A stretch of DNA of 64,000 bases. Source: Cherax quadricarinatus. Taxonomy: Eukaryota; Arthropoda; Malacostraca; Decapoda; Parastacidae. The notes beneath the pieces were generated by a model. It had not been told where the DNA came from. It searched no databases and worked only from the letters and a program-made list of their open reading frames with translations. This document shows, piece after piece, positions 1 through 62,191 of the stretch (the first letter of the stretch is position 1; every line of letters starts with the position of its first letter). The position numbers were made by a program, and so were the translations under genes. Location: positions 50,459,668 to 50,523,667 of the forward strand of contig NC_091300.1 in NCBI RefSeq assembly GCF_038502225.1, given 5' to 3'.

Positions 1-235
1 GGTGCTGTTCGCACCTACTCCTAGGTTGAGGGACTGATTACCTCATCTTCTGTACATAGTTCTACTGTCTTCAAGTTATGTCCTAGAATTTGTATTGATA
101 AAGCCACTGGATGGCGAAACGTCTACAATAAAGATACCCAGATGTTGCACATGTGTCTTACTTTCATCTTGTCGGTATTATATACCATTCGTACACACCT
201 TCAAAACTACCATTAGAAAGCATCTTATCTCCCTG
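1..235 (+). mobile_element. F4 repeat piece with hammerhead-like motif
   Basis: The window opens inside a PLE-related repeat unit (called F4 here). It has the same order of parts as the other families in the window: a 'gagggactgattac' box, a hammerhead fold at 90-128, an AATAAAG signal, a 'ttgcacatgtgtctta' stretch and then 'gtcggtattatatacc'. The left end is outside the window. No protein is suggested. The right boundary is approximate because the match fades after about 200-235. A more decayed relative lies at 4465-4692. Confidence 0.6.
90..128 (+). ncRNA. Hammerhead ribozyme, U3-A8 core variant (F4)
   Basis: Type I-like hammerhead read from the sequence. Stem I is 90-94 (UUGUA) with 124-128 (UACAA), five perfect pairs. 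The core box 95-101 is UUGAUAA instead of CUGANGA. An extra A sits at 102. Stem II is 103-106 with 112-115. GAAA is 116-119, stem III is the 2-bp AC/GU, and cleavage would follow C123. Both C3 and G8 are changed, to U and A, so the tertiary core pair could still form as U-A. Activity is not shown by sequence alone. Confidence 0.6.
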
Positions 236-597
236 ATACACCCCGTCAACTAACTACACGAATACCACCTGGTGGTTCAAACTTAAACTCACTCACTCAT
301 TTGACCATAAACAGAAATATTAATCTCAATCTTAAAATAATGAATCCTGTGATACTCCAATACTGAAACTATGTACTGTGCCAAAACAAAAGCATTCACA
401 TTGCTAAACTCACAAACTAGTATTTAGTCACTTAGCCATAATACCAACTTACCTCATAATTTGTAATATTTTACAATTAAGAATAAAACTAAGTCTGCCC
501 GAAATGCCTAGCCATGCTAAGCGTTCTAGTGGTACACTCTGTAATCACTATTTTACTACATGTAAGCCACACAATAAACAGATTTCTGTAAACTCAG
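236..597. other. AT-rich stretch, nothing recognised
   Basis: No coding frame, RNA gene or repeat that I recognise. The sequence reads as unconstrained AT-rich DNA between the F4 piece and the PLE-A insertion. Confidence 0.5.
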
Positions 598-650
598 CAT
601 TGTAATCCTTGGTTTAGAAAGACACGTAAGCAAACACTATAACATATTTA

Positions 651-690
651 TTAGAAAACGTTTCGGTCCTGGGACCTTGATCACTTCTAA
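651..690 (-). ncRNA. Hammerhead ribozyme with G3-C8 core exchange (PLE-A, left arm)
   Basis: Exact reverse-complement copy of the motif at 4238-4277, lying downstream of the PLE-A coding frame on the minus strand. Stem I has six perfect pairs (UUAGAA with UUCUAA). The core box is GUGAUCA and is followed by an extra A. Stem II is GGUC/GACC with a CCAG loop. GAAAC-GUU completes the core, and AAUAAA follows. See the plus-strand entry for numbering. Confidence 0.65.
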
Positions 691-769
691 CATACAGAGG
701 TAGAAAGACATTATATATATAGGCGGAGAGTGAGATGTGACGCACGTGACCTGAGGAATGTCATAAGAA

Positions 770-842
770 CATAAGAATGGAGGAACACTGTAGAAGGCCT
801 ACTGGCCCATGCGAGGCAGGTCCTTATCAAAACAACCTCTGT
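770..842 (-). mobile_element. CR1 3'-tail fragment inside PLE-A
   Basis: The sequence matches the CR1 3' UTR seen elsewhere in the window (aggcctactggccc, aggaacactgtag, aagaacataag), here in reverse orientation. The same piece sits in the inverted arm at about 4090-4165. It was therefore part of the PLE-A 3' region before the two arms were formed. Confidence 0.65.
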
Positions 843-1297
843 CTATGATGAGGACCAGTAGACGATGAAATCATGTGACTCCTGTGTTGAACATTATGAA
901 CATTAAAATGGTATAAAATACCGACAGATTGTTAGGTAAGACACATATGCAACAGTTATGTGTCTTACCTAACAATCTGTCGGTATTTTATACCATTTTA
1001 ATGTTCATTCTGTCAGACACTGCAACACAAGGGTATCTTGGTACAGACCATCTACTTCGACAACCTCTACTAGTGAGAACGGCTGGGTTTGAGAGGGACC
1101 TGCCCTCCCAAATCAACCTACGTCTCACCTCCTGGCACTATATAAGGCCCGATTCTGTCACTTCAACTTCATATTGTTTCAGACAACGGAACAATGCTCT
1201 TCTCCAGACTGAGGGACTGACCACCTCAAAACTTTAAGGGTGATGGACTGATTACATCGTCTTCAAGTATCTTCTGCTTCTATCAACTTTTCTGTAC

Positions 1298-1336
1298 TCG
1301 ACTGAAGAAGCCTACTGTGTAGGCGAAACGTTTCAA
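1298..1336 (+). ncRNA. Hammerhead ribozyme, F1 unit 1
   Basis: CUGAAGA core (N7 is A) at 1302-1308, extra A 1309, 6-bp stem II 1310-1315/1319-1324 with a UGU loop, GAAAC-GUU at 1325-1332. Stem I UCGA/UCAA has one mismatch (C1299 with A1335). A TATATAAG box lies about 160 bases upstream, and an A/T-rich AATATAAAG follows. Confidence 0.65.
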
Positions 1337-1702
1337 AATATAAAGATACCTAACTGTTGCATATGTGTCTTACCTAACAATCTGTCGGTATTTTATACCA
1401 TTTTAATGTTCATTCTGTCAGACACTGCAACACAAGGGTATCTTGGTACAGACCATCTACTTCGACAACCTCTACTAGTGAGAACGGCTGGGTTTGAGAG
1501 GGACCTGCCCTCCCAAATCAACCTACGTCTCACCTCCTGGCACTATATAAGGCCCGATTCTGTCACTTCAACTTCATATTGTTTCAGACAACGGAACAAT
1601 TCTCTTCTCCAGACTGAGGGACTGACCACCTCAAAACTTTAAGGGTGATGGACTGATTACATCGTCTTCAAGTATCTTCTGCTTCTATCAACTTTTCTGT
1701 AC

Positions 1703-1741
1703 TCGACTGAAGAAGCCTACTGTGTAGGCGAAACGTTTCAA
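1703..1741 (+). ncRNA. Hammerhead ribozyme, F1 unit 2
   Basis: Same fold as at 1298-1336. C3 is 1707 and H17 is U1737. Stem I UCGA/UCAA again has the C-A mismatch, so the two units of this insertion share a private substitution. Confidence 0.65.
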
Positions 1742-1772
1742 AATAAAGATACCTAACTGTTGCATATGTGTC

Positions 1773-3620
1773 TTACCTGACTCCTGTGTTGTTGGGTTGG
1801 TGCTGCTTAAGTATCATGTATGCCAATGTTTTTGAAATTTTGTAGTTTCCAGTGTTGCGTTCTATAGTGTCGGTGACGGTGATTAGTGAGGCTTCTAGGC
1901 ACCGTCGGCGTCTGAGGTCTGGTTCGGTGAGAACGAGTTGTGCCTCGTTCCAGTTCATCAAATGCCCCGTTGAGTCTCTGTGGAGGACACAGGCGTACCT
2001 TACATCGTCTCTGTTAGAGGCATTTCGATGCTCATTCAGGCTGACTGCAAGATCTCTGCCTGTCTCGCCTACATATTTCTTGGGACAGAACCCACAAGGG
2101 ATCGTGTAGACGCCTGCTGTAGAAGTTAGAGGTGTGGGGCTGCGTTTAGTAGTGAGGTCTTTGATAGAGGATGTGTTTATGGTGGAAACGTTGATGTTAC
2201 TCATAGCAAGTGCCCGGCGAGTATTGTTGGCAACATCGCCACATGGGAGTACTATGAACTGTTTAGGGGGCTGTTCCATGGGCGGTTTGTTGAGGATAGC
2301 TTGTGCCTTGAGTCTGCAATCTCGGATGAAGAAAGATGGGAACTGAAGACGTGTAAAGGCTTGTGTTATGTAAGTGCATTCTTCTTCTAGAAAACAAGGG
2401 CTGGAGATGCGAAGAGCTCTCAAGAAGAAGCCAATGAGGACTCCTCTCTTAGTGCGGGTATCTTGGTGTGAATAAAAGTGTATAAGATCGTCCTTGTTGG
2501 TAGGTTTTCTATACACTTTGAAGAGAAGTTTGTCACTGTCGGGAGATCTGCACAGTAGAACGTCGAGGAAAGGAAGTTTGCCATCATTTTCGAGTTCAAG
2601 TGTAAACTTTATTGATGGTTCAACTGCATTGATCTTGTTGAGAAGGGCCTGGATATTGAGACGTCTTGGATAGAAAACCAATATATCATCAACGTATCTT
2701 AGCCAGGTAACGGTGTTGGGAATGAGGGTGCTGAATTTCTCTGTCTCCAAGTTTTCCATGAAGAGGTTGGCAAGCACAGCACTGAGCGGGCTTCCCATTG
2801 CCATCCCAAAGCATTGTTTGTAACAGTTGTCCTGATACTTGAAGAAGTTGAAATTAACACACAGTTCCACTAGATTGATGAAATCTAGAAGAGGTAAAGG
2901 GAGGTCGTGGTTTTCAGTGAGCCTCTGTCTCAGAATGTTGATTGCAGCGTCAGTAGGAACGTTGGTAAAGAGGGCTGTGACATCGAAGGAAGCCATGCTT
3001 TTGTTTTTGACATTCAGGTTGGAAATTCGGGAGAGAAGGTCACCTGAATGTTTGAGGTGGGCTTGACTGATAGTGCCCAGAAGCGCTGAAAGGTATTTGG
3101 CAAGGTGGCCGGCTAATTTGTGTGGTGCACTCCCTATGCCCGAAGTGATAGGCCGTAGTGGGATGCCAGGTTTGTGTGTCTTAGGAAGGCCATACAGGCG
3201 TGCTGGTTTCGGTTGACCTGGTAAAAGTTTAAGTAGTTTTTTGCCTTGTTCTGATTTTCGTAAGATGCTACGAGCCTTTTGAAGGAAAGTCTGGGTACTT
3301 TGAAGTAGCACTGATTCCGATACAGGCTGGTATGTGTTGGCATCGTTGAGAAGATTTAAGACTTTATTGTTGTAGTCGACAGTGTTGAGTAACACCACAC
3401 CACCTCCTTTGTCAGCGGTTGTAATGACGATATCATCGTTGTTGGCCAAGTTCCTGAGTGCTTGGATGTATCTTCTGGGAATGACCGGTCTTGAAGGCTC
3501 AGTAGCTGCAGCAGTGATGATTCCTTGGACAAAGCCCTTTTGAAACTCGGAGTCTCCAAAAGGTTGGTTCTTGGTTACCATATCCACCAGATTATGTTGC
3601 CACGAATACTCGCCGGGCAC
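1773..3620 (-). CDS. Penelope-like reverse transcriptase with GIY-YIG endonuclease (PLE-A), 5'-truncated
   Basis: An open frame of 615 codons without internal stops. Near residue 70 it has the DKGGGVV stretch typical of PLE RTs. YGLPKTHKP and PLRPI follow, then FDVTALFTNVP (RT motif A), GMAMGSPLS (motif B), RYVDDILVF (motif C, catalytic YVDD near residue 310) and FKVYRKPT. The C-terminus holds a GIY-YIG nuclease: GVYTIPC, CPKKYVGETGRDL and NEHR. The encoded enzyme would reverse-transcribe its RNA at a nicked target. The apparent start (MPGEYSW) is an artefact: its first residues come from the inverted arm, so the true N-terminus is missing. The stop falls at the F1 insertion border. Confidence 0.85.
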   Translation of the reverse strand: MPGEYSWQHNLVDMVTKNQPFGDSEFQKGFVQGIITAAATEPSRPVIPRRYIQALRNLANNDDIVITTADKGGGVVLLNTVDYNNKVLNLLNDANTYQPVSESVLLQSTQTFLQKARSILRKSEQGKKLLKLLPGQPKPARLYGLPKTHKPGIPLRPITSGIGSAPHKLAGHLAKYLSALLGTISQAHLKHSGDLLSRISNLNVKNKSMASFDVTALFTNVPTDAAINILRQRLTENHDLPLPLLDFINLVELCVNFNFFKYQDNCYKQCFGMAMGSPLSAVLANLFMENLETEKFSTLIPNTVTWLRYVDDILVFYPRRLNIQALLNKINAVEPSIKFTLELENDGKLPFLDVLLCRSPDSDKLLFKVYRKPTNKDDLIHFYSHQDTRTKRGVLIGFFLRALRISSPCFLEEECTYITQAFTRLQFPSFFIRDCRLKAQAILNKPPMEQPPKQFIVLPCGDVANNTRRALAMSNINVSTINTSSIKDLTTKRSPTPLTSTAGVYTIPCGFCPKKYVGETGRDLAVSLNEHRNASNRDDVRYACVLHRDSTGHLMNWNEAQLVLTEPDLRRRRCLEASLITVTDTIERNTGNYKISKTLAYMILKQHQPNNTGVR

Positions 3621-3625
3621 TTGCT

Positions 3626-4057
3626 ATGAGTAACATCAACGTTTCCACCATAAACACATCCTCTATCAAAGACCTCACTACTAAACGCAGCCCCACACCT
3701 CTAACTTCTACAGCAGGCGTCTACACGATCCCTTGTGGGTTCTGTCCCAAGAAATATATAGGCGAGACAGGCAGAGATCTTGCAGTCCGCCTGAATGAGC
3801 ATCGAAATGCCTCTAACAGAGACGATGTAAGGTACGCCTGTGTCCTCCACAGAGACTCAACGGGGCATTTGATGAACTGGAACGAGGCACAACTCGTTCT
3901 CACCGAACCAGACCTCAGACGCCGACGGTGCCTAGAAGCCTCACTAATCACCGTCACCGACACTATAGAACGCAACACTGGAAACTACAAAATTTCAAAA
4001 ACATTGGCATACATGATACTTAAGCAGCACCAACCCAACAACACAGGAGTCACATGA
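3626..4057 (+). pseudogene. Inverted partial copy of PLE-A GIY-YIG domain
   Basis: A 143-codon frame repeating the last part of the PLE-A protein, from MSNINVST to the C-terminus, on the opposite strand. It keeps GVYTIPC, YIGETGRDLAVRLNEHR and the RRRRCLEASLI block. It lacks the RT and is a by-product of the inverted insertion structure, not an independent gene. A few substitutions (V/I, S/R) separate it from the minus-strand copy. Confidence 0.85.
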
Positions 4058-4237
4058 TTTCATCGTCTACTGGTCCTCATCATAGACAGAGGTTGTTTTG
4101 ATAAGGACCTGCCTCGCATGGGCCAGTAGGCCTTCTACAGTGTTCCTCCATTCTTATGTTCTTATGACATTCCTCAGGTCACGTGCGTCACATCTCACTC
4201 TCCGCCTATATATATAATGTCTTTCTACCTCTGTATG

Positions 4238-4277
4238 TTAGAAGTGATCAAGGTCCCAGGACCGAAACGTTTTCTAA
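4238..4277 (+). ncRNA. Hammerhead ribozyme with G3-C8 core exchange (PLE-A, right arm)
   Basis: Stem I: 4238-4243 (UUAGAA) pairs with 4272-4277 (UUCUAA). The core box 4244-4250 reads GUGAUCA where CUGANGA is expected: position 3 is G and position 8 is C. An extra A is at 4251. Stem II is 4252-4255/4260-4263 (GGUC/GACC). GAAA is 4264-4267, C-G make the short stem III, and cleavage would follow U4271. AATAAA begins just downstream (4277-4282). Positions 3 and 8 pair with each other in known hammerhead structures, so the double change keeps that pair. Confidence 0.65.
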
Positions 4278-4464
4278 TAAATATGTTATAGTGTTTGCTT
4301 ACGTGTCTTTCTAAACCAACTTGTCGGTATTTATTACCAAGGTTTATACCATTGTAATCCTTATAGAGAATAAACTTTGATTTTGAATTTGAATTGTCAC
4401 TGGTAATGGGAGAATCCCCAGTGGAAATAGTTATACCCAATGAATGGACCAGTATTAAACAAGT

Positions 4465-4692
4465 ATGTTGTGTAGATGTCCTCTGTACCAAGATGCCACG
4501 ATGTTACAGTATACAATACCGACAAGATGAGGAATTAGATACATGTGCATTATGCAACATCTGCGTATCTTTAATTGTATATATTTCCTCACATTATGTT
4601 CTTGCACTGTACTGATAAAGCCACTGGTTGCCGAAACGTCTACAATTGAAGATACTCAGATGTTGCAAATGTGTCTAATTCCTCATTATTAT
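4465..4692. mobile_element. Small F4 fold-back insertion
   Basis: A minus-strand half (about 4480-4560: ctgtaccaagatgcca, caataccgacaagatg, tgcaacatctg) folds onto a plus-strand half (about 4560-4680) that ends ttgcaaatgtgtctaatt. The 3' ends face outward, as in the other insertions. I did not find a clean TSD, so the borders are approximate. An (ATT)n tract follows at 4684-4724. Confidence 0.6.
4608..4642 (+). ncRNA. Decayed hammerhead motif (F4 second copy)
   Basis: Core box CUGAUAA at 4612-4618 and GAAAC-GUC at 4633-4640. Stem I UGUA/UACA is intact, but stem II is broken (the 3' strand reads UUGCC instead of UGGC). C3 faces A8. It is probably inactive. Confidence 0.5.
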
Positions 4693-4756
4693 TATCATTA
4701 TTTTTATTATTATTATTATTATTATCAAGGGCGAAGCGTTAAACCTGTAGGATTAT

Positions 4757-4870
4757 AAGAACATAAGAACATAAGAAAGAAGGACACTGCAAAAGGCCTA
4801 CTGGCCTTTACGAGGTAGGTCCACTTCTCCCACCGGCTTAAGCCAATGCCTTGACCTAGTGAGGTCAGAC
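4757..4870 (-). mobile_element. CR1 3'-end fragment, strongly 5'-truncated
   Basis: About 115 bases of CR1 3' UTR on the minus strand, ending in the octamer-type tail (aagaacataagaacataag on the plus strand). A second CR1 (CR1-A) begins directly after it with its own tail at 4871. Confidence 0.65.
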
Positions 4871-5024
4871 ATAAGAACATAAGAACATAAGAAAGGAGGA
4901 ACACTGCAGCAGGCCTGTTGGCCCATACTAGGCAGGTCCTTTACAATTCATCCCACTAACAAACATTTGACCAACCCAATTTTCAATGCCACCCAAGAAA
5001 CAAGCTCCGATGTGCAAGTCCCTC

Positions 5025-6660
5025 TCAAATCCAACCCCTCCCACTCATGTACTTATCCAACCTAAATTTGAAACTACCCAAAGTCCTAGCCTCAATAACC
5101 CAACTAGGTAGACTGTTCCACTCATCAACTACCCTATTTCCAAACCAATACTTTCCTATGTCCTTTCTAAATCTAAACTTATTTAATTTAAATCCATTAC
5201 TGCGGGTTCTCTCTTGGAGAGATATCCTCAAGACCTTGTTAATATCCCCTTTATTAATACCTATCATCCACTTATACACTTCGATCAGGTCTCCCCTCAT
5301 TCTTCGTCTAACAAGTGAATGTAACTTAAGAGTCTTCAATCTTTCTTCATAAGGAAGATTTCTAATGCTATGTATTAATTTAGTCGTCCTACGCTGAATG
5401 TTTTCTAACGAATTTATGTCCATTCTGTAATATGGAGACCAGAATTGAGCTGCATAATCTAGGTGAGGCCTTACTAATGATGTATAAAGCTGCAGTATGA
5501 CCTCTGGACTTTTGTTGCTTACACTTCTTGATATAAATCCCAGTAATCTTTTGCCTTATTACGTACACTTAGGCATTGCTGTCTTGGTTTAAGGTTGCTG
5601 CTTACCATAACCCCCAAGTCCTTTTCGCAATCTGTATGGCTAAGTTCTACATTATTTAACTTATAAGTGCTAGGGTTATGGACACTCCCGAGCTTCAGAA
5701 CCTTGCATTCATCTACATTGAACTGCATCTGCCACTTTTCTGACCAAGAGTAGAGTTTGTCTAAATCCTCCTGAAGTTCCCTAACATCTACGTTTGAATC
5801 AATTATCCTACCTATCTTCGTGTCATCGGCGAATTTGCTCATATCACTAGTAATTCCTTCATCAAGATCATTGATATATATTATAAACAACAACGGGCCC
5901 AAGACTGATCCCTGTGGAACGCCACTTGTTACTGATCCCCACTCGGATTTAACCCCATTTATGGACACTCTCTGCTTCCTGTCTGTGAGCCATGATTCGA
6001 TCCACGAGAGCACCGTTCCCCCAATGCCATGAGCTGCCACTTTCTTCAACAGTCTTTGGTGCGGAACTCTATCAAATGCCTTACTAAAATCTAAGTAAAC
6101 AATATCAAATTCTTTATCGTGGTCAACAGCCTCAAAAGCTTTACTGAAGAAAGTTAATAAATTAGTTAGACAAGACCGGCCTCTTGTGAATCCATGCTGA
6201 GTATCCTTAATCAAGCTATGCTTATCGAGATGGCTTCTTATAATCTCAGCTATAATTGACTCTAGTAATTTGCCTACAATTGAGGTCAGGCTTATTGGGC
6301 GGTAATTTGACGGTAACGACTTGTCCCGTTTTAAAAATAGGAATTACATTAGCCATCTTCCACATATCAGACACTACACCTGTTTGAAGAGATAAATTAA
6401 AAATATTAGTTAATGGTTCACAGACTTCCATTTTGCATTCCTTAAGAACCCTTGAAAAAACCTCATCAGGACCCGGTGACTTATTTTGCTTCAGTCGGTC
6501 TGTCTGCTTCACAACCATTTCACTAGTGACTGTGATGTTACATAATTCATCTTCTTCTGATCCACTATAAAAATTAATTACCGGAATATTATTAGTGTCT
6601 TCCTGTGTAAAAACCGAGAGAAAATAATTATTTAAAATCGAGCACATTTCATTCTCTTTG
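5025..6660 (-). pseudogene. CR1-A ORF2 reverse transcriptase remnant
   Basis: Three minus-strand frames (6246-6647, 5519-6214, 5025-5423) belong to one broken RT. Visible in order: [49 protein letters not shown] (motif A), [20 protein letters not shown] (motif B), KFADDTK (motif C), then RTTKLIHSIRNLPYEERL and the C-terminal FRKDIGKYWFGNRVVDEWNSLP block. Frame changes near 6230 and 5515 and loss of the endonuclease make it non-functional. In life this enzyme primes reverse transcription at a nick cut by the linked endonuclease. Confidence 0.8.
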
Positions 6661-6772
6661 TCAGTAAGATGCCCATAGTTATTTTTAAGGGGACCTATTG
6701 AACATTAAAATGGTATAAAATACCGACAGGTTGTTAGGTAAGACACATATGCAACAGTTAGGTATCTTTATT

Positions 6773-6811
6773 ATGAAACGTTTCGCCTACACAGTAGGCT
6801 TCTTCAGTCAA
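6773..6811 (-). ncRNA. Hammerhead ribozyme, F1 (stem I U-A variant)
   Basis: The minus-strand fold has core CUGAAGA, an extra A, a 6-bp stem II and GAAAC-GUU. Stem I reads UUGA/UCAU, so the usual third C-G pair is replaced by U-A. Confidence 0.7.
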
Positions 6812-7248
6812 GTACAGAAAAGTTGATAGAAGCAGAAGATACTTGAAGACGATGTAATCAGTCCATCACCCTTACTCTTGCATATGTGTCTTACCTAACA
6901 ACCTGTCGGTATTTTATACCATTTTAATGTTCAATCTGTCAGACACTGCAACACAAGGGTATCTTGGTACAGACCTGCAATCAACTTCGACAACTTCCAC
7001 CAGTGAGAGCGGCTGGATTTGAGAAGGACCTGACCTTTCAACATCTGAGTTCTTACCTCTCCTAGTGGCCTACGTCTCACCTCTTGGCGCTATAAAAGCT
7101 CCATCCTGTCACTTCATCTCCATATTGTTTCATACTATGGAACAATACTCTTCTCCAGACTGAGGGACTGACCACCTCAAAACTTTAAGGGTGATGGACT
7201 GATTACACCGTCTTCAAGTATCTTCTGCTTCTATCAACTTTTCTGTAC

Positions 7249-7287
7249 TTGACTGAAGAAGCCTACTGTGTAGGCGAAACGTTTCAT
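7249..7287 (+). ncRNA. Hammerhead ribozyme, F1 (stem I U-A variant)
   Basis: C3 is 7253, stem II 7261-7266/7270-7275, GAAA 7276-7279, H17 U7283. Stem I 7249-7252 UUGA pairs with 7284-7287 UCAU, again with U-A at the third position. Confidence 0.7.
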
Positions 7288-7629
7288 AATAAAGATACCT
7301 AACTGTTGCATATGTGTCTTACCTAACAAGGGGACCTATCTTTTCTCTGACTTTTGTTCTATAGACTTGGAAAAAAACTTTTTGGGTTAGTTTTAGAATC
7401 CCTAACAACTTTAATTTCATAGTCCCTTTTAGCTTTTCTTATCCCCTTTTAATGTCCCTCTTAATGTCAATATACTGATTCATATGATGACCCTCGCCTC
7501 TTTTGATACGCCTATAAATTCCTTTCTTATGCCCTAGTAGATATTTCGTCACTTAAGGGAGGAGCACTGCACCCGCCCTAGTAGCACAAGTTAGGTAAGA
7601 CACATATGCAACAGTTAAGTATCTTTATT

Positions 7630-7668
7630 TCGAAACGTTTCGCCTACACAGTAGGCTTCTTCAGTCGA
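7630..7668 (-). ncRNA. Hammerhead ribozyme, F1 array
   Basis: Minus-strand fold: stem I UCGA/UCGA (4 bp), core CUGAAGA, extra A, stem II GCCUAC/GUAGGC with UGU loop, GAAAC-GUU. Confidence 0.7.
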
Positions 7669-8029
7669 GTACAGAAAAGTTGATAGCAGAAGATACTTGA
7701 AGACGATGTAATCAGTCCATCACCCTTAAAGTTTTGAGGTGGTCAGTCCCTCAGTCTGGAGAAGAGCATTGTTCCGTTGTCTGAAACAATATGAAGTTGA
7801 AGTGACAGGATGGAGCCTTATATAGTGCCAGGAGGTGAGACGTAGGTTGCTTTGGGAGGGCAGGTCCCTCTCAAACCCAGCCGTTCTCACTAGTAGAGGT
7901 TGTCGAAGTTGATGGTCTGTACCAAGATACCCTTGTGTTGCAGTGTCTGACAGAATGAACATTAAAATGGTATAAAATACCGACAGATTGTTAGGTAAGA
8001 CACATATGCAACAGTTAGGTATCTTTATT

Positions 8030-8068
8030 TCGAAACGTTTCGCCTACACAGTAGGCTTCTTCAGTCGA
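8030..8068 (-). ncRNA. Hammerhead ribozyme, F1 array
   Basis: Same fold as 7630-7668, one unit further on; all core and stem bases are unchanged. Confidence 0.7.
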
Positions 8069-8432
8069 GTACAGAAAAGTTGATAGAAGCAGAAGATACT
8101 TGAAGACGATGTAATCAGTCCATCACCCTTAAAGTTTTGAGGTGGTCAGTCTCTCAGTCTGGAGAAGAGCATTGTTCCGTTGTCTGAAACAATATGAAGT
8201 TGAAGTGACAGGATGGAGCCTTATATAGTGCCATGAGGTGAGACGTAGGTTGCTTTGGGAGGGCAGGTCCCTCTCAAACCCAGCCGTTCTCACTAGTAGA
8301 GGTTGTCGAAGTTGATGGTCTGTACCAAGATACCCTTGTGTTGCAGTGTCTGACAGAATGAACATTAAAATGGTATAAAATACCGACAGATTGTTAGGTA
8401 AGACACATATGCAACAGTTAGGTATCTTTATT

Positions 8433-8471
8433 TCGAAACGTTTCGCCTACACAGTAGGCTTCTTCAGTCGA
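8433..8471 (-). ncRNA. Hammerhead ribozyme, F1 array
   Basis: Same fold as 7630-7668, at a 403-base spacing from the previous unit; all core and stem bases are unchanged. Confidence 0.7.
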
Positions 8472-8930
8472 GTACAGAAAAGTTGATAGAAGCAGAAGAT
8501 ACTTGAAGACGATGTAATCAGTCCATCACCCTTAAAGTTTTGAGGTGGTCAGTCCCTCAGTCTGGAGAAGAGCATTGTTCCGTTGTCTGAAACAATATGA
8601 AGTTGAAGTGACAGGATGGAGCCTTATATAGTGCCAGGAGGTGAGACGTAGGTTGCTTTGGGAGGGCAGGTCCCTCTCAAACCCAGCCGTTCTCACTAGT
8701 AGAGGTTGTCGAAGTTGATGGTCTGTACCAAGATACCCTTGTGTTGCAGTGTCTGACAGAATGAACATTAAAATGGTATAAAATACCGACAGATTGTTAG
8801 GTAAGACACATATGCAACAGTCTTCTCCAGACTGAGGGACTGACCACCTCAAAACTTTAAGGGTGATGGACTAATTACATCGTCTTCAAGTATCTTCTGC
8901 TTCTATCAACTTTTCTGTACTCGACTGAAG

Positions 8931-8959
8931 AAGCCTACTGTGTAGGCGAAACGTTTCGA
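8931..8959 (+). ncRNA. Hammerhead ribozyme, F1 array, plus arm
   Basis: Stem I 5' strand UCGA at 8931-8934, C3 at 8935, 3' strand UCGA at 8956-8959. Core and stem II are identical to the minus-arm copies. Confidence 0.7.
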
Positions 8960-9320
8960 AATAAAGATACCTAACTGTTGCATATGTGTCTTACCTAACA
9001 ATCTGTCGGTATTTTATACCATTTTAATGTTCATTCTGTCAGACACTGCAACACAAGGGTATCTTGGTAGACCATCAACTTCGACAACCTCTACTAGTGA
9101 GAACGGCTGGGTTTGAGAGGGACCTGCCCTCCCAAAGCAACCTACATCTCACCTCCTGGCACTATATAAGGCTCCATCCTGTCACTTCAACTTCATATGT
9201 TTCAGACAACGGAACAATGCTCTTCTCCTGACTGAGAGACTGACCACCTCAAAACTTTAAGGGTGATGGACTGATTACATCGTCTTCAAGTATCTTCTGC
9301 TTCTATCAACTTTTCTGTAC

Positions 9321-9359
9321 TCGACTGAAGAAGCCTACTGTGTAGGCGAAACGTTTCGA
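9321..9359 (+). ncRNA. Hammerhead ribozyme, F1 array, plus arm
   Basis: Stem I UCGA 9321-9324 with UCGA 9356-9359; CUGAAGA core, extra A, 6-bp stem II, GAAAC-GUU. Confidence 0.7.
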
Positions 9360-9564
9360 AATAAAGATACCTAACTGTTGCATATGTGTCTTACCTAACA
9401 ATCTGTCGGTATTTTATACCATTTTAATGTTCATTCTGTCAGACACTGCAACACAAGGGTATCTTGGTACAGACCATCAACTTCGACAACCTCTACTAGT
9501 GAGAACGGCTGGGTTTGAGAGGGACCTGCCCTCCCAAAGCAACCTACGTCTCACCTCCTGGCAC

Positions 9565-9572
9565 TATATAAG
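9565..9572 (+). promoter_or_regulatory. TATA-like box in F1 unit
   Basis: TATATAAG, conserved in nearly all F1 units (for example near 1140 and 1543) and at the equivalent place in F2 (16667-16674). It lies about 160 bases before the hammerhead. A promoter role is inference from position and conservation between two otherwise diverged families. Confidence 0.4.
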
Positions 9573-9723
9573 GCTCCATCCTGTCACTTCAACTTCATAT
9601 TGTTTCAGACAACGGAACAATGCTCTTCTCCAGACTGAGGGACTGACCACCTCAAAACTTTAAGGGTGATGGACTGATTACATCGTCTTCAAGTATCTTC
9701 TGCTTCTATCAACTTTTCTGTAC

Positions 9724-9762
9724 TCGACTGAAGAAGCCTACTGTGTAGGCGAAACGTTTCGA
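9724..9762 (+). ncRNA. Hammerhead ribozyme, F1 array, plus arm
   Basis: Stem I UCGA 9724-9727 with UCGA 9759-9762; same core as its neighbours. The downstream AATAAAG begins four bases later. Confidence 0.7.
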
Positions 9763-9951
9763 AATAAAGATACCTAACTGTTGCGTATGTGTCTTACCTA
9801 ACAATCTGTCGGTATTTTATACCATTTTAATGTTCATTCAGCACAAGTTAGTCAGGTACAACTCACACCCACCCACACCCACTCATGTATTTATCCAACC
9901 TATTTTTAAAACTACACAACGTCTTAGCGTCTATGACGGTACTCAGGAGTT

Positions 9952-10384
9952 TGTTCTACTCATCCACAACTCTATTAAAAAAACAGTGCTTTCCTATTTC
10001 CTTCCTGAATCTGAATTTTTTCAATTTAAAATCATTGCTGCGAGCCCTGTCTATGTTAGATATTTTTAGCACGCTATTTACATCCCCTTTATTAATTCCT
10101 GTTTTCCATTTATACACCTCAATCTTATCATCCCTAATTCTACGCCTTTCTAGAGAGTGCAGATTCAGGGCTCTCAGCCTATCCTTATAGGGAAGATTTC
10201 TGATACATGGGATCAACTTTGTCATCCTCCTTTGTATGTTGTCCAGTGCATTTATATCTATTCTGTAATACGGTGACCAGAACAGAGCAGCATAATCTAA
10301 ATGATGCCTAACCAAAGATATATAGAGCTGAAGAACAACCTGAGGACTTTTATTATTTATACTTCTTGTTATGAAGCCAAGGTG
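9952..10384 (-). pseudogene. CR1-B ORF2 C-terminal fragment
   Basis: The minus strand encodes the end of a CR1 ORF2: SPQVVLQLYISLVRHHLDYAALFWSPYYR, NIQRRMTKLIPCIRNLPY, LHSLERRRIRD, then FRFRKEIGKHCFFNRVVDE. RT catalytic motifs and endonuclease are absent. This block is the conserved C-terminal domain found in all the CR1 copies here. Confidence 0.75.
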
Positions 10385-15051: not shown

Positions 15052-15086
15052 GGAAACGTTTCGCCACGCAGTGGCTTCATCAGTCC
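15052..15086 (-). ncRNA. Hammerhead ribozyme, F2 unit
   Basis: Minus strand: stem I GGA/UCC, canonical core CUGAUGA, an extra A, stem II GCCAC/GUGGC with UGC loop, GAAAC-GUU. This is the closest match to the textbook core among the families here. Confidence 0.75.
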
Positions 15087-15429
15087 AATACAAAGAGGAA
15101 GGCGTAAGGAGAGGAGGAGAATGAGGTAATCAGTCCCTCAACCTGGAGTCGATGTGTTCAGTCCATCAATCTTGTAGAATGTACAGCATAGGGCCGTAGA
15201 CGTGGCTTATATACTGTAGTGAGGTGACGTGAAGCAGTTGGAGGCGGGGTCATAGTGGTACCATCCACTAGTCGAAGTAGGTCTTCGTCCAAAGGTTGAA
15301 CAAGTGTTGAAGAATTCTTTGTAACAAGATCCCATGATGCTGCTGTGTCTGACAGTTGTGATGAATGGTTTGAAAAACCGACATGTTGAAGATTGAGACA
15401 CTTATGCAGCATATGGGAATCTTTATTCA

Positions 15430-15464
15430 GGAAACGTTTCGCCACGCAGTGGCTTCATCAGTCC
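15430..15464 (-). ncRNA. Hammerhead ribozyme, F2 unit
   Basis: Identical to 15052-15086 at a 378-base spacing. Confidence 0.75.
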
Positions 15465-15807
15465 AATACAAAGAGGAAGGCGTAAGGAGAGGAGGAGAAT
15501 GAGGTAATCAGTCCCTCAACCTGGAGTCGATGTGTTCAGTCCATCAATCTTGTAGAATGTACAGCATAGGGCCGTAGACGTGGCTTATATACTGTAGTGA
15601 GGTGACGTGAAGCAGTTGGAGGCGGGGTCATAGTGGTACCATCCACTAGTCGAAGTAGGTCTTCGTCCAAAGGTTGAACAAGTGTTGAAGAATTCTTTGT
15701 AACAAGATCCCATGATGCTGCTGTGTCTGACAGTTGTGATGAATGGTTTGAAAAACCGACATGTTGAAGATTGAGACACTTATGCAGCATATGGGAATCT
15801 TTATTCA

Positions 15808-15842
15808 GGAAACGTTTCGCCACGCAGTGGCTTCATCAGTCC
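15808..15842 (-). ncRNA. Hammerhead ribozyme, F2 unit
   Basis: Identical to 15052-15086, two units on. Confidence 0.75.
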
Positions 15843-16185
15843 AATACAAAGAGGAAGGCGTAAGGAGAGGAGGAGAATGAGGTAATCAGTCCCTCAACCT
15901 GGAGTCGATGTGTTCAGTCCATCAATCTTGTAGAATGTACAGCATAGGGCCGTAGACGTGGCTTATATACTGTAGTGAGGTGACGTGAAGCAGTTGGAGG
16001 CGGGGTCATAGTGGTACCATCCACTAGTCGAAGTAGGTCTTCGTCCAAAGGTTGAACAAGTGTTGAAGAATTCTTTGTAACAAGATCCCATGATGCTGCT
16101 GTGTCTGACAGTTGTGATGAATGGTTTGAAAAACCGACATGTTGAAGATTGAGACACTTATGCAGCATATGGGAATCTTTATTCA

Positions 16186-16220
16186 GGAAACGTTTCGCCA
16201 CGCAGTGGCTTCATCAGTCC
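16186..16220 (-). ncRNA. Hammerhead ribozyme, F2 unit
   Basis: Identical to 15052-15086, three units on; the last minus-strand copy before the inversion. Confidence 0.75.
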
Positions 16221-16415
16221 AATACAAAGAGGAAGGCGTAAGGAGAGGAGGAGAATGAGGTAATCAGTCCCTCAACCTGGAGTCGATGTATATAAGCCAC
16301 GTCTACGGCCCTATGCTGTACATTCTACAAGATTGATGGACTGAACACATCGACTCCAGGTTGAGGGACTGATTACCTCATTCTCCTCCTCTCCTTACGC
16401 CTTCCTCTTTGTATT

Positions 16416-16450
16416 GGACTGATGAAGCCACTGCGTGGCGAAACGTTTCC
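16416..16450 (+). ncRNA. Hammerhead ribozyme, F2 plus arm
   Basis: GGA 16416-16418, core CUGAUGA 16419-16425, extra A 16426, stem II 16427-16431/16435-16439, GAAA 16440-16443, cleavage predicted after U16447, UCC 16448-16450. Confidence 0.75.
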
Positions 16451-16666
16451 TGAATAAAGATTCCCATATGCTGCATAAGTGTCTCAATCTTCAACATGTC
16501 GGTTTTTCAAACCATTCATCACAACTGTCAGACACAGCAGCATCATGGGATCTTGTTACAAAGAATTCTTCAACACTTGTTCAACCTTTGGACGAAGACC
16601 TACTTCGACTAGTGGATGGTACCACTATGACCCCGCCTCCAACTGCTTCACGTCACCTCACTACAG

Positions 16667-16674
16667 TATATAAG
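16667..16674 (+). promoter_or_regulatory. TATA-like box in F2 unit
   Basis: TATATAAG 127 bases before the hammerhead, matching the box in F1. Promoter function is inferred. Confidence 0.4.
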
Positions 16675-16793
16675 CCACGTCTACGGCCCTATGCTGTACA
16701 TTCTACAAGATTGATGGACTGAACACATCGACTCCAGGTTGAGGGACTGATTACCTCATTCTCCTCCTCTCCTTACGCCTTCCTCTTTGTATT

Positions 16794-16828
16794 GGACTGA
16801 TGAAGCCACTGCGTGGCGAAACGTTTCC
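16794..16828 (+). ncRNA. Hammerhead ribozyme, F2 plus arm
   Basis: Same as 16416-16450; C3 is 16797. The insertion ends about 43 bases later. Confidence 0.75.
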
Positions 16829-18824: not shown

Positions 18825-19339
18825 ACAGAAAGTAGGCAGGAGCAGTAGAGATGTGTAGACGATGTAATCAGTCCATCACCCTTGAAGTCGTAGATTTGAG
18901 GTTGTCAGTCCCTCAGCCTGGAGAAGTTCTGTTCGAAAGTCTGGAACTAACTGAAGATCAAGCGACAGTGTTGAGACTTTAACATTGTCGGAAGGAGAGG
19001 TGCAGAGTAGTAGTAGTGAGAATTTAGCCACTGGGAGGTCATGTCCCTCTCAGATCAAACAGTTCTCACTTGAAAAAGTTGTCCAAGGTGTTTTCTCTTC
19101 TGTACCAAGATGCCATTGTGTTGCAGTGTCTGACAGAGTGATTATCAAAAGGTATACAATACCGACAGGTTGGTAAATAACAAAAAAAAAGGCACAATAC
19201 CGTGACTGGAACGATTCACAAATAACCCGCACATAGAAGAGAGGAGCTTACGACGACGTTTCGGTCCAACTTGGACCATTTACAAAGTCACACTAACCAG
19301 AAGTGGAGCAGGACGGCTATGTATAGGCAGGAAGAGGTA

Positions 19340-19450: not shown

Positions 19451-19689
19451 GGGAACTAAGGAAGAGGAGCCAGTCAAATATAAAGAAAGGGGAGGACTGC
19501 AAGGGAGCTAGGTGCCCACAGAGGGAGAGCAAGTGCACAGAGGTGGGGGGAAGGAGAACGATGAAATAAATAATGAAGGAACAGAAACACGCGACAGAAG
19601 AAAGACAAAAAAAGAGACAAAAAAAAAGGAAAGGGGAAGAGGGAGAAGAAGAAAATGAGGAATCATTTTACAATGTAGTGGGAGAGGAA

Positions 19690-21290
19690 GGCATCTAGAG
19701 AGAAGAAGCCAGGACTAAGATTCATACAAGGAAAGTTGTGTATTAGAGAGGATTCAACAAGACAGCGACTGTTAAAGTTGGAAGTAGGGAAGACAGTTTT
19801 AGCAGAAGACCAGTCTATAGGATGGCTGTGATCTCTGACGTGACAGAAAAGAGCATTGTTAGTGTCGGCGAGCCTAACGCTTTTTTTGTGCTCCCTAAGT
19901 CTCTCAGAAAGAGATCGGCCAGTTTCTCCAAAGTATTGAAGAGGACAGGAGGAGCAAGAAATAGAGTAGACACCAGGAACATCTCTAGAGGGAGGAGAGG
20001 TATGAAGGAGATTAGTGCGCAGAGTGTTAGTCTGGTGGAAAGTAAGCTTGATGTCTAAGGGACGGAGATAATTGTTGAGATTAGAAAGACCGGAAATGTA
20101 GGAAAGGCAGAAGACAGAAGAGTTCCCAGGAGTAGAGAGTTTGGGAGAGAAGAAATTACGTTTAGCCCGTGAGAAGGCAGAGTTTATGAAATGGGAAGGG
20201 TAGCCAAGACGGGAAAACGAATTGTGAAGAGTGGAAATTTCTGCTGGAAGGAACTGAGGATCACAGATGCGGAGGGCACGGAGAAAGAGGGAGGCCCAGT
20301 AGGCCTTCTGCAGTGTTCCTACATTCTTATGTTCTTATGTTCTTATGTTCTTATGTTCTTAAGAACACTTTTCTTGACAGGGGAAGCATGATAGGAAAAG
20401 TAGTGAATGTACATGCCACTGTGCATAGGTTTTCGGTAAACGGAAAAGGAAAAACCTGTATCTGAGCGGTGGACATGGACATCAAGGAAAGGAAGCAAGG
20501 AATTAGATTCCCATTCAGCCTTAAACTTAATGGAAGGGGCAAGATTATTAAGAGCTTCAAGAAAAGGTTGGAAGAGGTTGGAGTCATGAGGCCACAGAGC
20601 AAATATGTCGTCCACTCAGCGGAACCAGAGTGAAGGTTGCATATCGATGGTAGGAAGAAGAACAGTCTCGAAGTATTCCATGTAAAGATTAGCAAGGACA
20701 GGAGAGAGAGGAGAGTCCATAGCGACACCGAAGGTTTGAGAATAATATTTCCCTTGGAAGGAAAAGGAATTAGAGTCCAGAGGCGGATAAGATCAAGAAA
20801 GACATCAATAGGTATAGGGAGATGTAGAAACACTTCAAGGGCCTTCTCTCTAAGGAAATCAAGGACATCATCAAGAGGGACATTGGTGAAGAGGGACTCA
20901 ACGTCAAGACTAAGCATCTTACAGGTTGGGAGAGAGCGATCCCGTTCAATGAAGTCTTGAGAGTGACGGAGGTGGGCAGGAGAAAAAGTACCAAGAAAGG
21001 GAGTGATGGTTTTAGCCAACCAAGAAGCAAGAGAATAAGAGACAGAACCTCTAGAGGATATGATAGGACGTAGGGGAATATCAGGTTTCTGAGTTTTGGG
21101 AAGGCCATAGAAATAGGGAAGAGGGGGATAGATGACACGAAACCGTTGAACAAGGTCAAAGTCAGGAGGACAGAGGTCGGAGAGAGTCCTTAGTTTCTTG
21201 TTGAAAGTTCTCTTGATGCTATCAAGACGGTTGGAAACGAGAGGAGTGTAGGTACGTGAGTCAGAGAGCAAGACATCCGCTTGACTTTGT
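19690..21290 (-). pseudogene. PLE-B RT and GIY-YIG, frameshifted
   Basis: Minus strand. The RT part shows LPYFYGLPKTQKPDIPLRPIISSRGSVSYSLASWLAKT, MLSLDVESLFTNVPLDDVLDFLREKA (motif A), then frameshifts through the YVDD-like region near 20600 (VDDIFALWPHD) and LPFLDVHVHRSDTGFSFSVYRKPMHSG. A CR1 tail interrupts at 20361-20288. Beyond it, the reverse complement of 20290-19690 encodes the GIY-YIG part (CPPSLEMFLVSTLFLVLLVLF in one frame; the ETGRSLS-type frame is near 19930). It is the same family as 44180-46118, which gives a cleaner reading. Confidence 0.75.
20288..20361 (+). mobile_element. CR1 3' tail inserted in PLE-B RT
   Basis: About 70 bases: ggcccagtaggccttctgca, then five TTCTTATG octamers. 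It splits the PLE-B frame at the site that reads gttcttatctccctcttt in the intact relative at 45014. It is an extreme 5' truncation with the octamer tail intact. Confidence 0.8.
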
Positions 21291-21585
21291 AAATGGTCCA
21301 AGTCGGACCGAAACGTCGTCGTAAGCACACAGTAGGCTTCTTCAGTCGAGTACAGAAAGTAGGACATGACCTCTCAGTGGCTACATTCTCACTACTACTA
21401 CTCTGCACCTCTCCTTCCGACAATATTTAAGTCTCAACACTGTCGCTTGATCTTCAGTTAGTTCCAGACTTTGGAACAGAACTTCTCCAGGCTGAGGGAC
21501 TGACAACCTCAAATCTACGACTTCAAGGTTGATGGACGGATTTCATCGTCTTCACATCTCTACTGCTCCTGCCTACTTTCTGTAC

Positions 21586-44189: not shown

Positions 44190-45682
44190 GACTCTCTCCG
44201 ACCTCTGTCCTGACTTTTACCTTGTTCAACGTTTTCGTGCCATCTGTCCCTCTCTACCCTATTTCTATGGCCTTCCCAAAACCCATAAACCTGATATTCC
44301 GCTACATCCTATCATATCCTCTAGAGGTTCTGTTTCTTATTCTCTTGCTTCTTGGCTGGCCAAAACCCTCACCCCCTTTCTTGGTACTTTTTCTCCTGCC
44401 CACCTCCGTCACTCTCAAGACTTCATTGAACGGGTTCGCTCTCTCCCAACCTGTAAGATGCTTAGTCTTGATGTTGAGTCCCTCTTCACCAATGTCCCTC
44501 TTGATGATGTCCTTGATTTTCTTAGAGAGAAGGCCAATAAGGGTTTCTTCATATTCCTATACCTACTGATGTTTTTCTTGATCTTATCCGCCTCTGCGTG
44601 GACTCTAATTCCTTTTCCTAACAAGGGAAATATTATTCTCAAACCTTCGGTGTCGCTATGGGCTCTCCTCTCTCTCCTGTCCTTGCTAATCTTTACATGG
44701 AATACTTCGAAACTGTTCTTCTTCCTGCTATCGATGTGCGCCCTTCACTCTGGCTCCGCTATGTTGATGACATCTTTGCTCTGTGGCCTCATGACTCTTG
44801 TCTCTTCCAACCATTTCTTGATGCTCTTAATAATCTTGTCCCTTCCATTAAGTTTAAAGCTGAATGGGAATCTACCCTTTGGTTCCTTATCTTGATGTTC
44901 ATGTCCACCGCTCGGATACAGGTTTTTCCTTTTCCATTTACCGCAGACCTATGCACATTGGCACGTACATTCACTACTTTTTTTATCATGCTTCCTCTGT
45001 CAAGAAAAGTGTTCTTATCTCCCTCTTTCTCCGTGCCCTCCGCATCTGTGATCCTCAGTTCCTTCAATCCGAAATTTCCACTCTTCATAATTCATTTTCC
45101 CGTCTTGGCTACCCTTCCCATTTCATAAACTCTGCCTTCTCACGTGCTAAACGTAGTTTCTTTTCTCCCAAGCTCTCTACTCCTGGGAACACTTCTGTCC
45201 TCTGCCTTCCCTATATTTCCCGTCTTACTAATCTCAACAACTCTCTTCGTTCCTTAGACATCAAACTTACTTTCCACCAGACTAACACTCCTGGCACTAA
45301 TCTTGTTCATACCTCTCTTCCCTCTAGAGATGCTCCTGGTGTCTACTCTATTTCTTGTTCCTCCTGTCCTCTTCAATACTTTGGAGAAACTGGTCGATCT
45401 CTTTCTGACAGACTTAGGGAGCACAAAAATAGTGTTAGGCTTGCCGACACTAACAATGCTCTTTTCTGTCACGTCAGAGATCACAGCCATCCTATTGACT
45501 GGTCTTCTGCTAAAACTGTCTTCCCTACTTCCAACTTTAACAGTCGCCGTCTGGTTGAATTCTCCCTAATACACAACTTTCCTTGTATGAATCTTAGTCT
45601 TGGCTTCGTCTCTGTGGATGCCTTCCTCTCCCACTACATTGTAAAATGCTCCAAACTTCAGAACACCCGTGACCTAACCTGA
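44190..45682 (+). pseudogene. PLE-B RT plus GIY-YIG, frameshifted
   Basis: RT: ISSRGSVSYSLASWLAKTLTPFLGTFSPAHLRHSQDF, KMLSLDVESLFTNVPLDDVLDFLREK (motif A, 44458 frame), then a shift to MGSPLSPVLANLYMEYFETVLLPA, LRYVDDIFALWPHD (YVDD, 44658 frame), then a shift to PYLDVHVHRSDTGFSFSIYRRPMH (44864 frame). This last frame runs open to 45682 with GVYSISCSSCPLQYFGETGRSLSDRLREHKNS, the GIY-YIG domain, and HPIDWSSAK. Three frames are needed, so the copy is inactive. Confidence 0.8.
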
Positions 45683-60205: not shown

Positions 60206-62191
60206 GAACTCTCGGAGCGTGAGGCAAGTTTGCTTTCAGATTCCTTAATGAGTTGGGGGACAAACTCATCACGGGAACCAAGGACTCCAGAGCTACCAGC
60301 TTCCTTTTCCAGAGACTCAGCAATGCGTTTCAGAAAGGAATTCCCTGTAGCATTCTGAACATACGACCGACCTCTGGGGAACTGGATAAAGTATTTAAGA
60401 TGTAATCTCTGAGAAATCATGCATGTTGTTCTCCTTCTCCTTCAATAAATGCCTTACAACGTTATTGAAGGGGAATAATGAATTAATTAAGTATTAATTA
60501 ATTAACTCTACCGTTTCTTTATGAATTAATCAAGACTCATAAACCAGAGAACTCAGTTCGTCCTGTTATAAATTCAGTAGGCTAGGCAGAATGGTTAGTT
60601 AAACTTTTAACTCCAATGGTCGGGAAGATCTGGGATGCACATACTAAAAGTGATGTTGACCTTACAGAGAGGCTCCAGAAATTAAACGTTTCATATAACT
60701 CTACCCTTGTGAGTTTGATGTCACAGCATTGTTTACCAGAGTCTCTGTCCCTGATTTGCTTACGTACTTTGAAGAGGAGCTAGAAAACTTCTCCTTGCCC
60801 TTCCCCAAGAATATAATTATTGAACCAATTAAACTTTGTATTACAGACCGCAGGTTAGTGTTTGAGGGTAAATACTATGCTCAAAAACAAGGCATGGCCG
60901 TGGGAAATCCCCTTAGTCCCTTACTCAGCAAGTTGTATATGGAATTCTATGAGACTAGAATCCAATTAAATCTAGGTGGTTCAAAGATGTAGACGATGTT
61001 CCTTGCCTTTGGCCAAGAGATCACAATACTTACGAGATTCTACCTAGATTCAGTGATCAAGTACGTTTTATTAAGTTCACAACTGAGCATGAAATATACA
61101 GCAATTTACCTTTCCTGACTGTTTTAATCCATCATGTTGACAGAAGATTTAGATTTACAGTTTACAGGAAGTCAATCAATGTGTCATCATAAATTTACTA
61201 TTATTCCAGTCATGGGTCTAGGGTTAAAAAGAGTATTTTCCTTACAAAGTTCTTGAGAGCCTTGCATATCTGTAGCCGGAGTATTTAGAAGATGAAATTA
61301 ATCAGATATTCAACATGGCTACAAAACTGAGATATCCTTGGGATTTTGTTGAGAAAGTTCTATTTTCAGTTAGAAAGATTTTCTATGGGAATGAACATAC
61401 CTTCCAGGTTTTACCCTACAACGAGAACAGTGGAACAGTGAAACAGAGGTTGATTAAGACGTCTAATAGAGTTGGTAGTGTTCACAAGGTCCCATGCATC
61501 TTTACTCTGTGTCATACATTGAACAAACTCATAAATCACTGGAAACCAGATTAACCCAGCATCGGTAACCAATCAAGAGTCGGATGCTATCTTCAACCAC
61601 GTCAGTTCTTGCAGTCACCCACCAGGGTGGGCAGCTGCTCAGATCATTGTACCCAATAGTTTCATCATGGGAAGAAACATAACTGAATCCTCGCTCTTGA
61701 AACATGATAGGAATACCTAATACAATTCAAGTTATAGGTTGTACAAAGTCGATAGCTATTTAATGGAGCCTGTTTTGAACAACCCTAAGCAACAGTGCTA
61801 TACAAAAATGTAAAATTTCTCGTTCTGCCATTGAGCCTCCAGAGAATTTGGAGACGTTAAACCAGCATTCTCTGCGCCTATCCTGCACCTTTGGCTTTCC
61901 GGGGAATGCGTCCTGCCCATCAGTATAATAAGTAACCAATAGTAGTAAGCCCATTTGGTACGGTTGTATAAGGATAATGATAAGGAATGATCGGAAAATT
62001 CATGAATAGTCAGGATATCTGGTCATAAATAATAATCGAAATACTAAGGAAGATTTATTTATAACAACAAAAAAAAACAGTAAGAAACTCTCGGAGCGTG
62101 AGGCAAATTTGCATTCAGATTTCTTAATGAGTTGGGGGACAAACTCATCACGGGAACCAAGGACTCCAGAGCTTCCAGCTTCCTTTTCCAG
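60206..62191 (+). mobile_element. Decayed Penelope-like element PLE-C between direct repeats
   Basis: A 107-base sequence (gaactctcggagcgtgaggc to cttccttttccag) occurs at 60206-60312 and 62085-62191 in the same orientation. Between them lie PLE RT and GIY-YIG remnants. The direct repeats could be the terminal (pLTR-like) repeats of this PLE, or the result of a tandem arrangement. Confidence 0.5.
60530..61720 (+). pseudogene. PLE-C RT and GIY-YIG remnants
   Basis: RT: a KTHKPENSVRPV-like piece near 60540, FDVTALFTRVSVPDLLTYFEEELENFSLPFPKN (motif A region, 60715-60810), YYAQKQGMAVGNPLSPLLSKLYMEFYETRI (motif B, to 60962), then a frameshift over the VDDVPCLWP-like motif C near 60990, and RRFRFTVYRKSINVSS and SSHGSRVKKSIFLTKFLRALHIC in shifted frames to 61280. 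A GIY-YIG piece follows: RVGSVHKVPCIF at about 61470 and FNHVSSCSHPPGWAAAQIIVPNS at about 61592-61660. Many stops and shifts; inactive. Confidence 0.65.

Follow-up and report, generated by a model that had tools for sequence, protein, structure and literature searches.

In hammerhead ribozymes, the base pair between core positions 3 and 8 was read from crystal structures and is backed by double mutants; in nature it is C-G and, rarely, U-A. Work by Przybilski and Hammann in 2007 reportedly showed that the activity of type III hammerheads tolerates other Watson-Crick pairs there. Naturally occurring U3-A8 hammerheads have been described (Perreault et al, 2011; PMC3088659), and the accessible part of that paper makes no mention of G3-C8. 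The hammerheads of Penelope-like elements (PLEs) are characterized in several reviews as minimal type I motifs without helix III, perhaps active as dimers and of unknown role (PMC7761336, PMC6155905, PMC7229834). In the Anolis PLE, C3G or G8C alone abolishes cleavage, the double change C3G/G8C partly restores it, and cleavage was observed only when the element's protein was present (PMC11167929). Here, a PLE of the decapod Cherax quadricarinatus is described, located in a 64,000-nt stretch of contig NC_091300.1 (positions 50,459,668 to 50,523,667; "the window" hereafter means this whole stretch), which carries in both of its inverted pseudo-long terminal repeats (pLTRs) a hammerhead-like motif with G3-C8. 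It is probably a minimal PLE-type hammerhead whose core pair 3-8 was exchanged from C-G to G-C and became fixed in a very large family.

The motif shares its position in the pLTR, the type I layout and the reduced helix III with the minimal type I hammerheads of PLEs (Cervera and De la Pena, 2014; Lunse, Weinberg and Breaker, 2017; as presented in PMC7761336 and PMC6155905), but pair 3-8 is G-C here, whereas the consensus is C-G. From PAc, the Poseidon PLE hammerhead of Anolis, it differs in that C3G/G8C was engineered there (PMC11167929), while a family carries it naturally here. The same core pair covaries in the natural U3-A8 hammerheads (PMC3088659), with U-A there and G-C here. The Penelope elements of Adineta vaga resemble the element in their inverted pLTRs, optional 31-bp tail, target site duplication (TSD) and palindromes at the inverted junction (PMC3846280); unlike here, the word "hammerhead" is absent from its text. 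In a literature search, no hammerhead family with G3-C8 as a natural, fixed state came to light; the PLE hammerhead papers of 2014 and 2017 lay outside this search, and other spellings could escape it.

The sequence of the motif is established: both arms read TGTTAGAA-GTGATCA-A-GGTCCCAGGACC-GAAA-CG-U-U-TTCTAATA (Table 1). This bears out the first-pass annotation, made from the letters of the window, which had proposed a hammerhead fold with a GUGAUCA core (G3 and C8) on both arms of a PLE. Stem II, GAAA and a cleavage triplet (GUU) are present as proposed, and stem I (TGTTAGAA/TTCTAATA), annotated with six perfect pairs, counts eight pairs including one G-U; the core letters, G3 U4 G5 A6 U7 C8 A9, were correct, but an extra A that follows A9, ahead of stem II, had been overlooked. 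Stem II, contained in GGTCCCAGGACC, has four pairs and a 4-nt loop in the predicted fold; adding a fifth pair is formally possible and would shrink the loop to 2 nt. The fold class is that of a minimal type I hammerhead, with stems I and II, U4 G5 A6 A9, G12 A13 A14, A15.1-U16.1 and H17 all in place; the consensus C3-G8 is replaced by G3-C8, which is still a Watson-Crick pair. Where stem III would be, the sequence GAAACGT provides a self-complementary ACGU; it is present in 17 of 17 aligned PLE motifs, 8 of which were retrieved with GAAACG as a requirement of the pattern or listing and 5 by a scan that required GAAAC (two copies with GAAACA from that scan are outside the alignment). Motifs with at least four pairs in stem II and at least five in stem I occur three times in the window (the two arms and a U3-A8 motif at 90-128), compared with 0.15 on average over 60 dinucleotide shuffles. 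Folding of 4228-4287 predicts both stems (z = −2.55; 2 of 200 shuffles equally good), and three further PLE motifs folded likewise reached z = −1.06 to −1.65, with that of the C3-G8 family F2 forming other pairs within the core.

A very large family carries G3-C8 as its natural, fixed state. When up to three mismatches are allowed, a 25-base pattern taken from the motif occurs at no fewer than 16,199 places in the 3.95-Gb host assembly (reversed control: 0), and a 34-base pattern with positions 3, 7 and 8 left free matches exactly at no fewer than 5,820 places; such counts may be lower bounds. Among the matches listed for the latter pattern (100 of 5,820, all on one contig), 98 read GTGATCA, one GTGATTA and one GTGATGA. 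The family copies fetched from the assembly have inverted arms, in most pairs with a 31-nt tail on one arm. Thirty-four loci have one left end and one right end each; in 30 of these, both ends share a flank word of at least 7 bases, which is what a TSD would produce; a few of these words are simple repeats, and two loci (L038 and L087) are one insertion. The first-pass annotation had named an isolated mutant among C3-G8 relatives as the outcome that would speak against it; nothing was found for such a mutant, which the thousands of G3-C8 copies rule out, leaving it practically no probability.

The PLE families of the host genome include C3-G8 (CUGAAGA-A, CUGAUGA-A), U3-A8 (UUGAUAA-A, UUGAAAA-A, UUGAYAA-A) and G3-C8 motifs. 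When 17 motifs were aligned, the hammerhead structure paired 79.9% of cells compared with 58.2% after shuffling, and covariation was 0.615 compared with 0.212, values as high being reached in 0 of 500 shuffles in either case. Less clear were two-sided pair changes (28 of 500 shuffles as high) and further pair types (129 of 500). The shuffle control does not remove the relatedness of the motifs; sliding the partner by 1-3 columns, which keeps it, lowered the covariation to 0.04-0.18. Stems I and II thus covary across families in the predicted register, which supports the fold, and the extra A after A9 is common to all 17 motifs. Pair 3-8 itself is GC in 8 rows, UA in 5, CG in 3 and other in one (the decayed copy at 4606, which has C.A); of the GC rows, 6 were selected by the G3/C8 pattern (as a match to it or as the opposite arm of such a match) and one is the window motif itself, so that the remaining 10 rows read GC 1, UA 5, CG 3 and other 1. 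One row (L047) derives from a pattern with a stem II loop one base longer, which has three places and was excluded from the counts. A scan demanding TGA, A9 and GAAAC but leaving positions 3 and 8 free yielded 24 core-plus-stem II classes, 20 of them Watson-Crick at 3-8 (UA 8, CG 7, GC 5; in addition GG 2, UG 1 and GU 1); it covered the fetched loci and the window, and GC is enriched because the G3-C8 motif was the reason for fetching most of these loci. Judged by these alignments, the core pair 3-8 seems to covary in nature between C-G, U-A and G-C. The U3-A8 motif at 90-128 has a decayed relative at 4606-4646, in which positions 3 and 8 read C.A and stem II is broken; the two flank the PLE described here.

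Outside the large family, G3-C8 with a stem II starting GC has a raw count of 28 places, which on reading the listing comprise 17 decayed copies of the large family and 11 other loci. Nine of these 11 have at least four stem II pairs, and five of the nine also at least three stem I pairs; two of these five, L091 and L092, are alike. A second G3-C8 relative, with a different stem I, has one exact place. L088 and L094 are kin of a U3-A8 family (stem I GUGAC/GUCAAU) yet read GUGAUCA, possibly through an independent move to G3-C8. The single-sided state G3.G8 with a stem II starting GC is found at 464 places in the host assembly; of the 21 copies compared, most are surrounded by differing flanks or lie at junctions (L125 and L128 have flanks in common), which gives the impression of mutants arisen here and there and not of one large family. 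One large amplified G3.G8 intermediate family is unsupported, most of the compared copies being scattered. A pattern scan of viral contigs gave 0 matches to the motif, and a protein-profile scan of other DNA sources matched 13 stretches, none of which was confirmed.

The window copy is an ordinary 5′-truncated, head-to-head PLE insertion and non-autonomous. Its PLE anatomy is established: a PLE-type reverse transcriptase (RT), inverted pLTR arms, the optional tail and a TSD are all present. The clean TSD of the first-pass annotation (CATTGTAATCCTT, 13 bp) stands, as do its nearly identical arms, with 4/459 mismatches and, in the outer arms, 0/281 (the two stretches overlap by 14; divergence ∼0.5%). 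The minus-strand copy contains most of the open reading frame (ORF), the plus-strand copy only its 3′ part. The frame had been called intact, which holds only for the RT and the putative endonuclease part: aligned to its relatives, which measure about 770 aa, the ORF is short of about 165 N-terminal residues, and its last residue differs (TGVR instead of TGVT) at the spot of a nested insertion; a full-length ORF is thus lacking. The GIY-YIG profile has no match at E ≤ 1 in the 615-aa ORF, whose conserved columns are present in the alignment with relatives, and it matches the plus-arm fragment weakly (E = 0.00037, 21.2 bits versus a cutoff of 22.6). Among 7,988 proteins scored, 853 match at E ≤ 1e-10, their annotations being Pfam domains and organism names; the assignment to PLEs draws on the DKG/YVDD/GIY-YIG layout. 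The proposed youth of the element agrees with the divergence of its arms and with its closest relatives among the fetched copies (∼99% identical), but this copy cannot be an active element because it is 5′-truncated and carries the nested insertion, which breaks the minus arm at, or adjoining, the ORF end. A long inverted repeat (914-990, minus strand) scores 36.7 bits with the mir-1002 model, below its gathering score of 85; it is a palindromic junction within the nested element and most likely not a microRNA.

Table 1. Features of the PLE insertion and of the compared motifs (window positions)
Feature	Position	Strand	Remarks
Hammerhead-like motif, plus arm	4236..4279	+	Stem I 4236-4243/4272-4279; predicted cut 4271/4272
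Plus-arm motif, core	G3 4244; U4-A9 4245-4250 (C8 4249); extra A 4251		
Plus-arm motif, 3′ part	Stem II + loop 4252-4263; G12-A15.1 4264-4267; CG 4268-4269; U16.1 4270; U17 4271		
Hammerhead-like motif, minus arm	649..692	-	Sequence identical to plus arm
Whole PLE insertion	611..4350	both	Inverted arms head-to-head, junction 3593/3594
Left TSD	598..610		CATTGTAATCCTT
Right TSD	4350..4362		CATTGTAATCCTT; initial C may be part of tail
ORF	1773..3620	-	RT core (YVDD, DKG), GIY-YIG-type C-terminus; RVT_1 E=9.6e-11
Second copy of ORF C-terminus	3626..4057	+	5′-truncated; GIY-YIG endonuclease just under Pfam cutoff
Nested insertion	890..1777		Different PLE family with C3-G8 motifs; TSD TGACTCCTGTGTTG (14 bp) at 876-889, 1778-1791
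Optional 31-nt 3′ tail	4320..4350	+	On one arm only
TATA-like stretch	4207..4217	+	TATATATATAA; first T 37 nt upstream of G3
Interval where 40/136 arms of fetched copies begin (pLTR 185-205)	4223..4243	+	Probable RNA 5′ ends
U3-A8 motif (UUGAUAA)	90..128	+	Different PLE family; GUC
C3-G8 family F1, example (CUGAAGA-A)	8921..8959	+	
C3-G8 family F2, example (CUGAUGA-A)	16416..16450	+	

The 5′ ends of the arms of fetched family copies point to where the RNA probably starts. The interval pLTR 185-205, in which 40 of 136 arms begin, lies 16-36 nt past the initial T of the TATA-like stretch, its last base being the one that precedes G3. These arms, from 80 loci, were obtained by excluding L001 and L003-L008 as overlapping duplicates, dropping the 44 of 184 matches that end before pLTR 230, and removing from the 140 rows left 4 cross-matches to another family; without L087, which is the same insertion as L038, the count is 40 of 134. 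Many of the arm starts at 1, 43 and 126 do not mark genuine 5′ ends but places where an alignment breaks or the query stops. Downstream of G3 there are eight starts of arms or fragments, including one that is a single base away from the predicted cut (235 versus 234). The simplest reading of the arm starts is that the element RNA would begin in, or just ahead of, the 5′ strand of stem I. Five very short inverted pairs (L001 and L029-L032) have their junction a few bases 5′ of G3, with a different sequence in each, which makes stem I a place where 5′ ends of PLE inserts recur.

In the mechanism proposed, pair 3-8 of a Penelope-group element would have changed from C-G to G-C, a direction suggested by the hammerhead consensus, and the RNA may still form a hammerhead core, given that G3-C8 is a Watson-Crick pair and can stand in for C3-G8. 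Cleavage is predicted directly after U17, before the 3′ strand of stem I, and would probably be weak in the monomer. Stem III appears to be reduced to the self-complementary A-C-G-U, as reported for other PLE hammerheads; cleavage should therefore need help from another copy or from the protein of the element. With an RNA 5′ end that probably falls inside stem I, the transcript would open with the motif. As far as the sequence can tell, a ribozyme function of the G3-C8 motif is plausible.

Several observations weigh against a functional hammerhead. The Rfam hammerhead models reach their gathering score nowhere in the window and give no match at E ≤ 10 in 500-10000, so that by covariance model the motif is not a canonical hammerhead; the C3-G8 PLE motifs of the window escape these models likewise. 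The triplet is GUU. The copying machinery may ignore the motif, and fixation in the family alone is hence no proof of function. Only 1 of the 136 arm 5′ ends is near the predicted cut, with no pile-up there, in a sample biased against such ends and no fair measure of cleaved ends, since the loci were chosen for an intact core. In the Anolis study, ribozyme mutants left insertion in vitro unaffected (PMC11167929), which together with the single end at the cut weakens the case that mobility depends on the ribozyme.

That PLE insertion in vitro needs no cleavage (PMC11167929) would also suit a dead hammerhead remnant, whose inactive core persists by its overlap with the promoter start and by the UGAUCA palindrome (through self-priming or head-to-head joining), while G3-C8 hitch-hiked with a master copy. 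The 40 arm 5′ ends just past the TATA-like stretch and the five inverted pairs joined just 5′ of the core are in line with such a remnant. It is nevertheless the unlikely explanation, considering that U4 G5 A6 A9, GAAA, ACGU and both stems are retained, that both sides of pair 3-8 change together across families, and that the palindrome needs no G at position 3. Another way to read the core starts from the extra A: all 17 aligned motifs have eight letters, not seven, between stem I and stem II, and if this shifted the numbering, the C would be an inserted letter and G3 would face another residue, in an altered core rather than an exchanged pair. The same columns, however, read C-G, U-A or G-C by family, with 1 of 17 unpaired, which makes a shift distinctly improbable. 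A viroid hammerhead described in 2001 is said to have its extra nucleotide located after A9. That a natural viroid hammerhead can carry an extra core nucleotide, as the title of that paper indicates (De la Pena and Flores, 2001), argues against a shift as well. The exchange of pair 3-8 in a minimal PLE-type hammerhead is therefore favored over both. The more far-reaching proposal, that this is the first natural, family-fixed and catalytically competent G3-C8 hammerhead, assisted by protein or dimerization at the 5′ end of the transcript, with pair 3-8 having evolved between C-G, U-A and G-C in one genome, can be made tentatively.

The window contains further PLE material. Motif clusters of the C3-G8 type on both strands occupy 6774-9762 and 15052-16828, several of the motifs being spaced about 400 and 378 bp, and minus-strand copies mostly stand ahead of plus-strand copies. 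Another PLE, noted at 19262 (minus strand) and 21310 (plus strand) and with RT similarity at 19669-21340 (minus strand), keeps in its pLTR the GGTCC..GGACC-GAAACGTC part without a CUGA box (UUUGUAAAU and variants); possibly, it has a degenerated or different RNA motif. Further PLE RT fragments are present at 44230-45658 and 60517-61276 (plus strand), and the hairpin scan recognized no hammerhead motif 3′ of them.

A G-C family beside C-G and U-A families in one genome represents natural comparative evidence for pair 3-8. If the more far-reaching proposal is true, the most conserved ribozyme core behaves, at this pair, as an ordinary covarying base pair. Hammerhead searches that demand C3 and G8 (CUGANGA) would miss thousands of motifs. 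The families would constitute a set of matched natural ribozymes, and thus material on how pair identity, dimerization and the PLE protein set activity.

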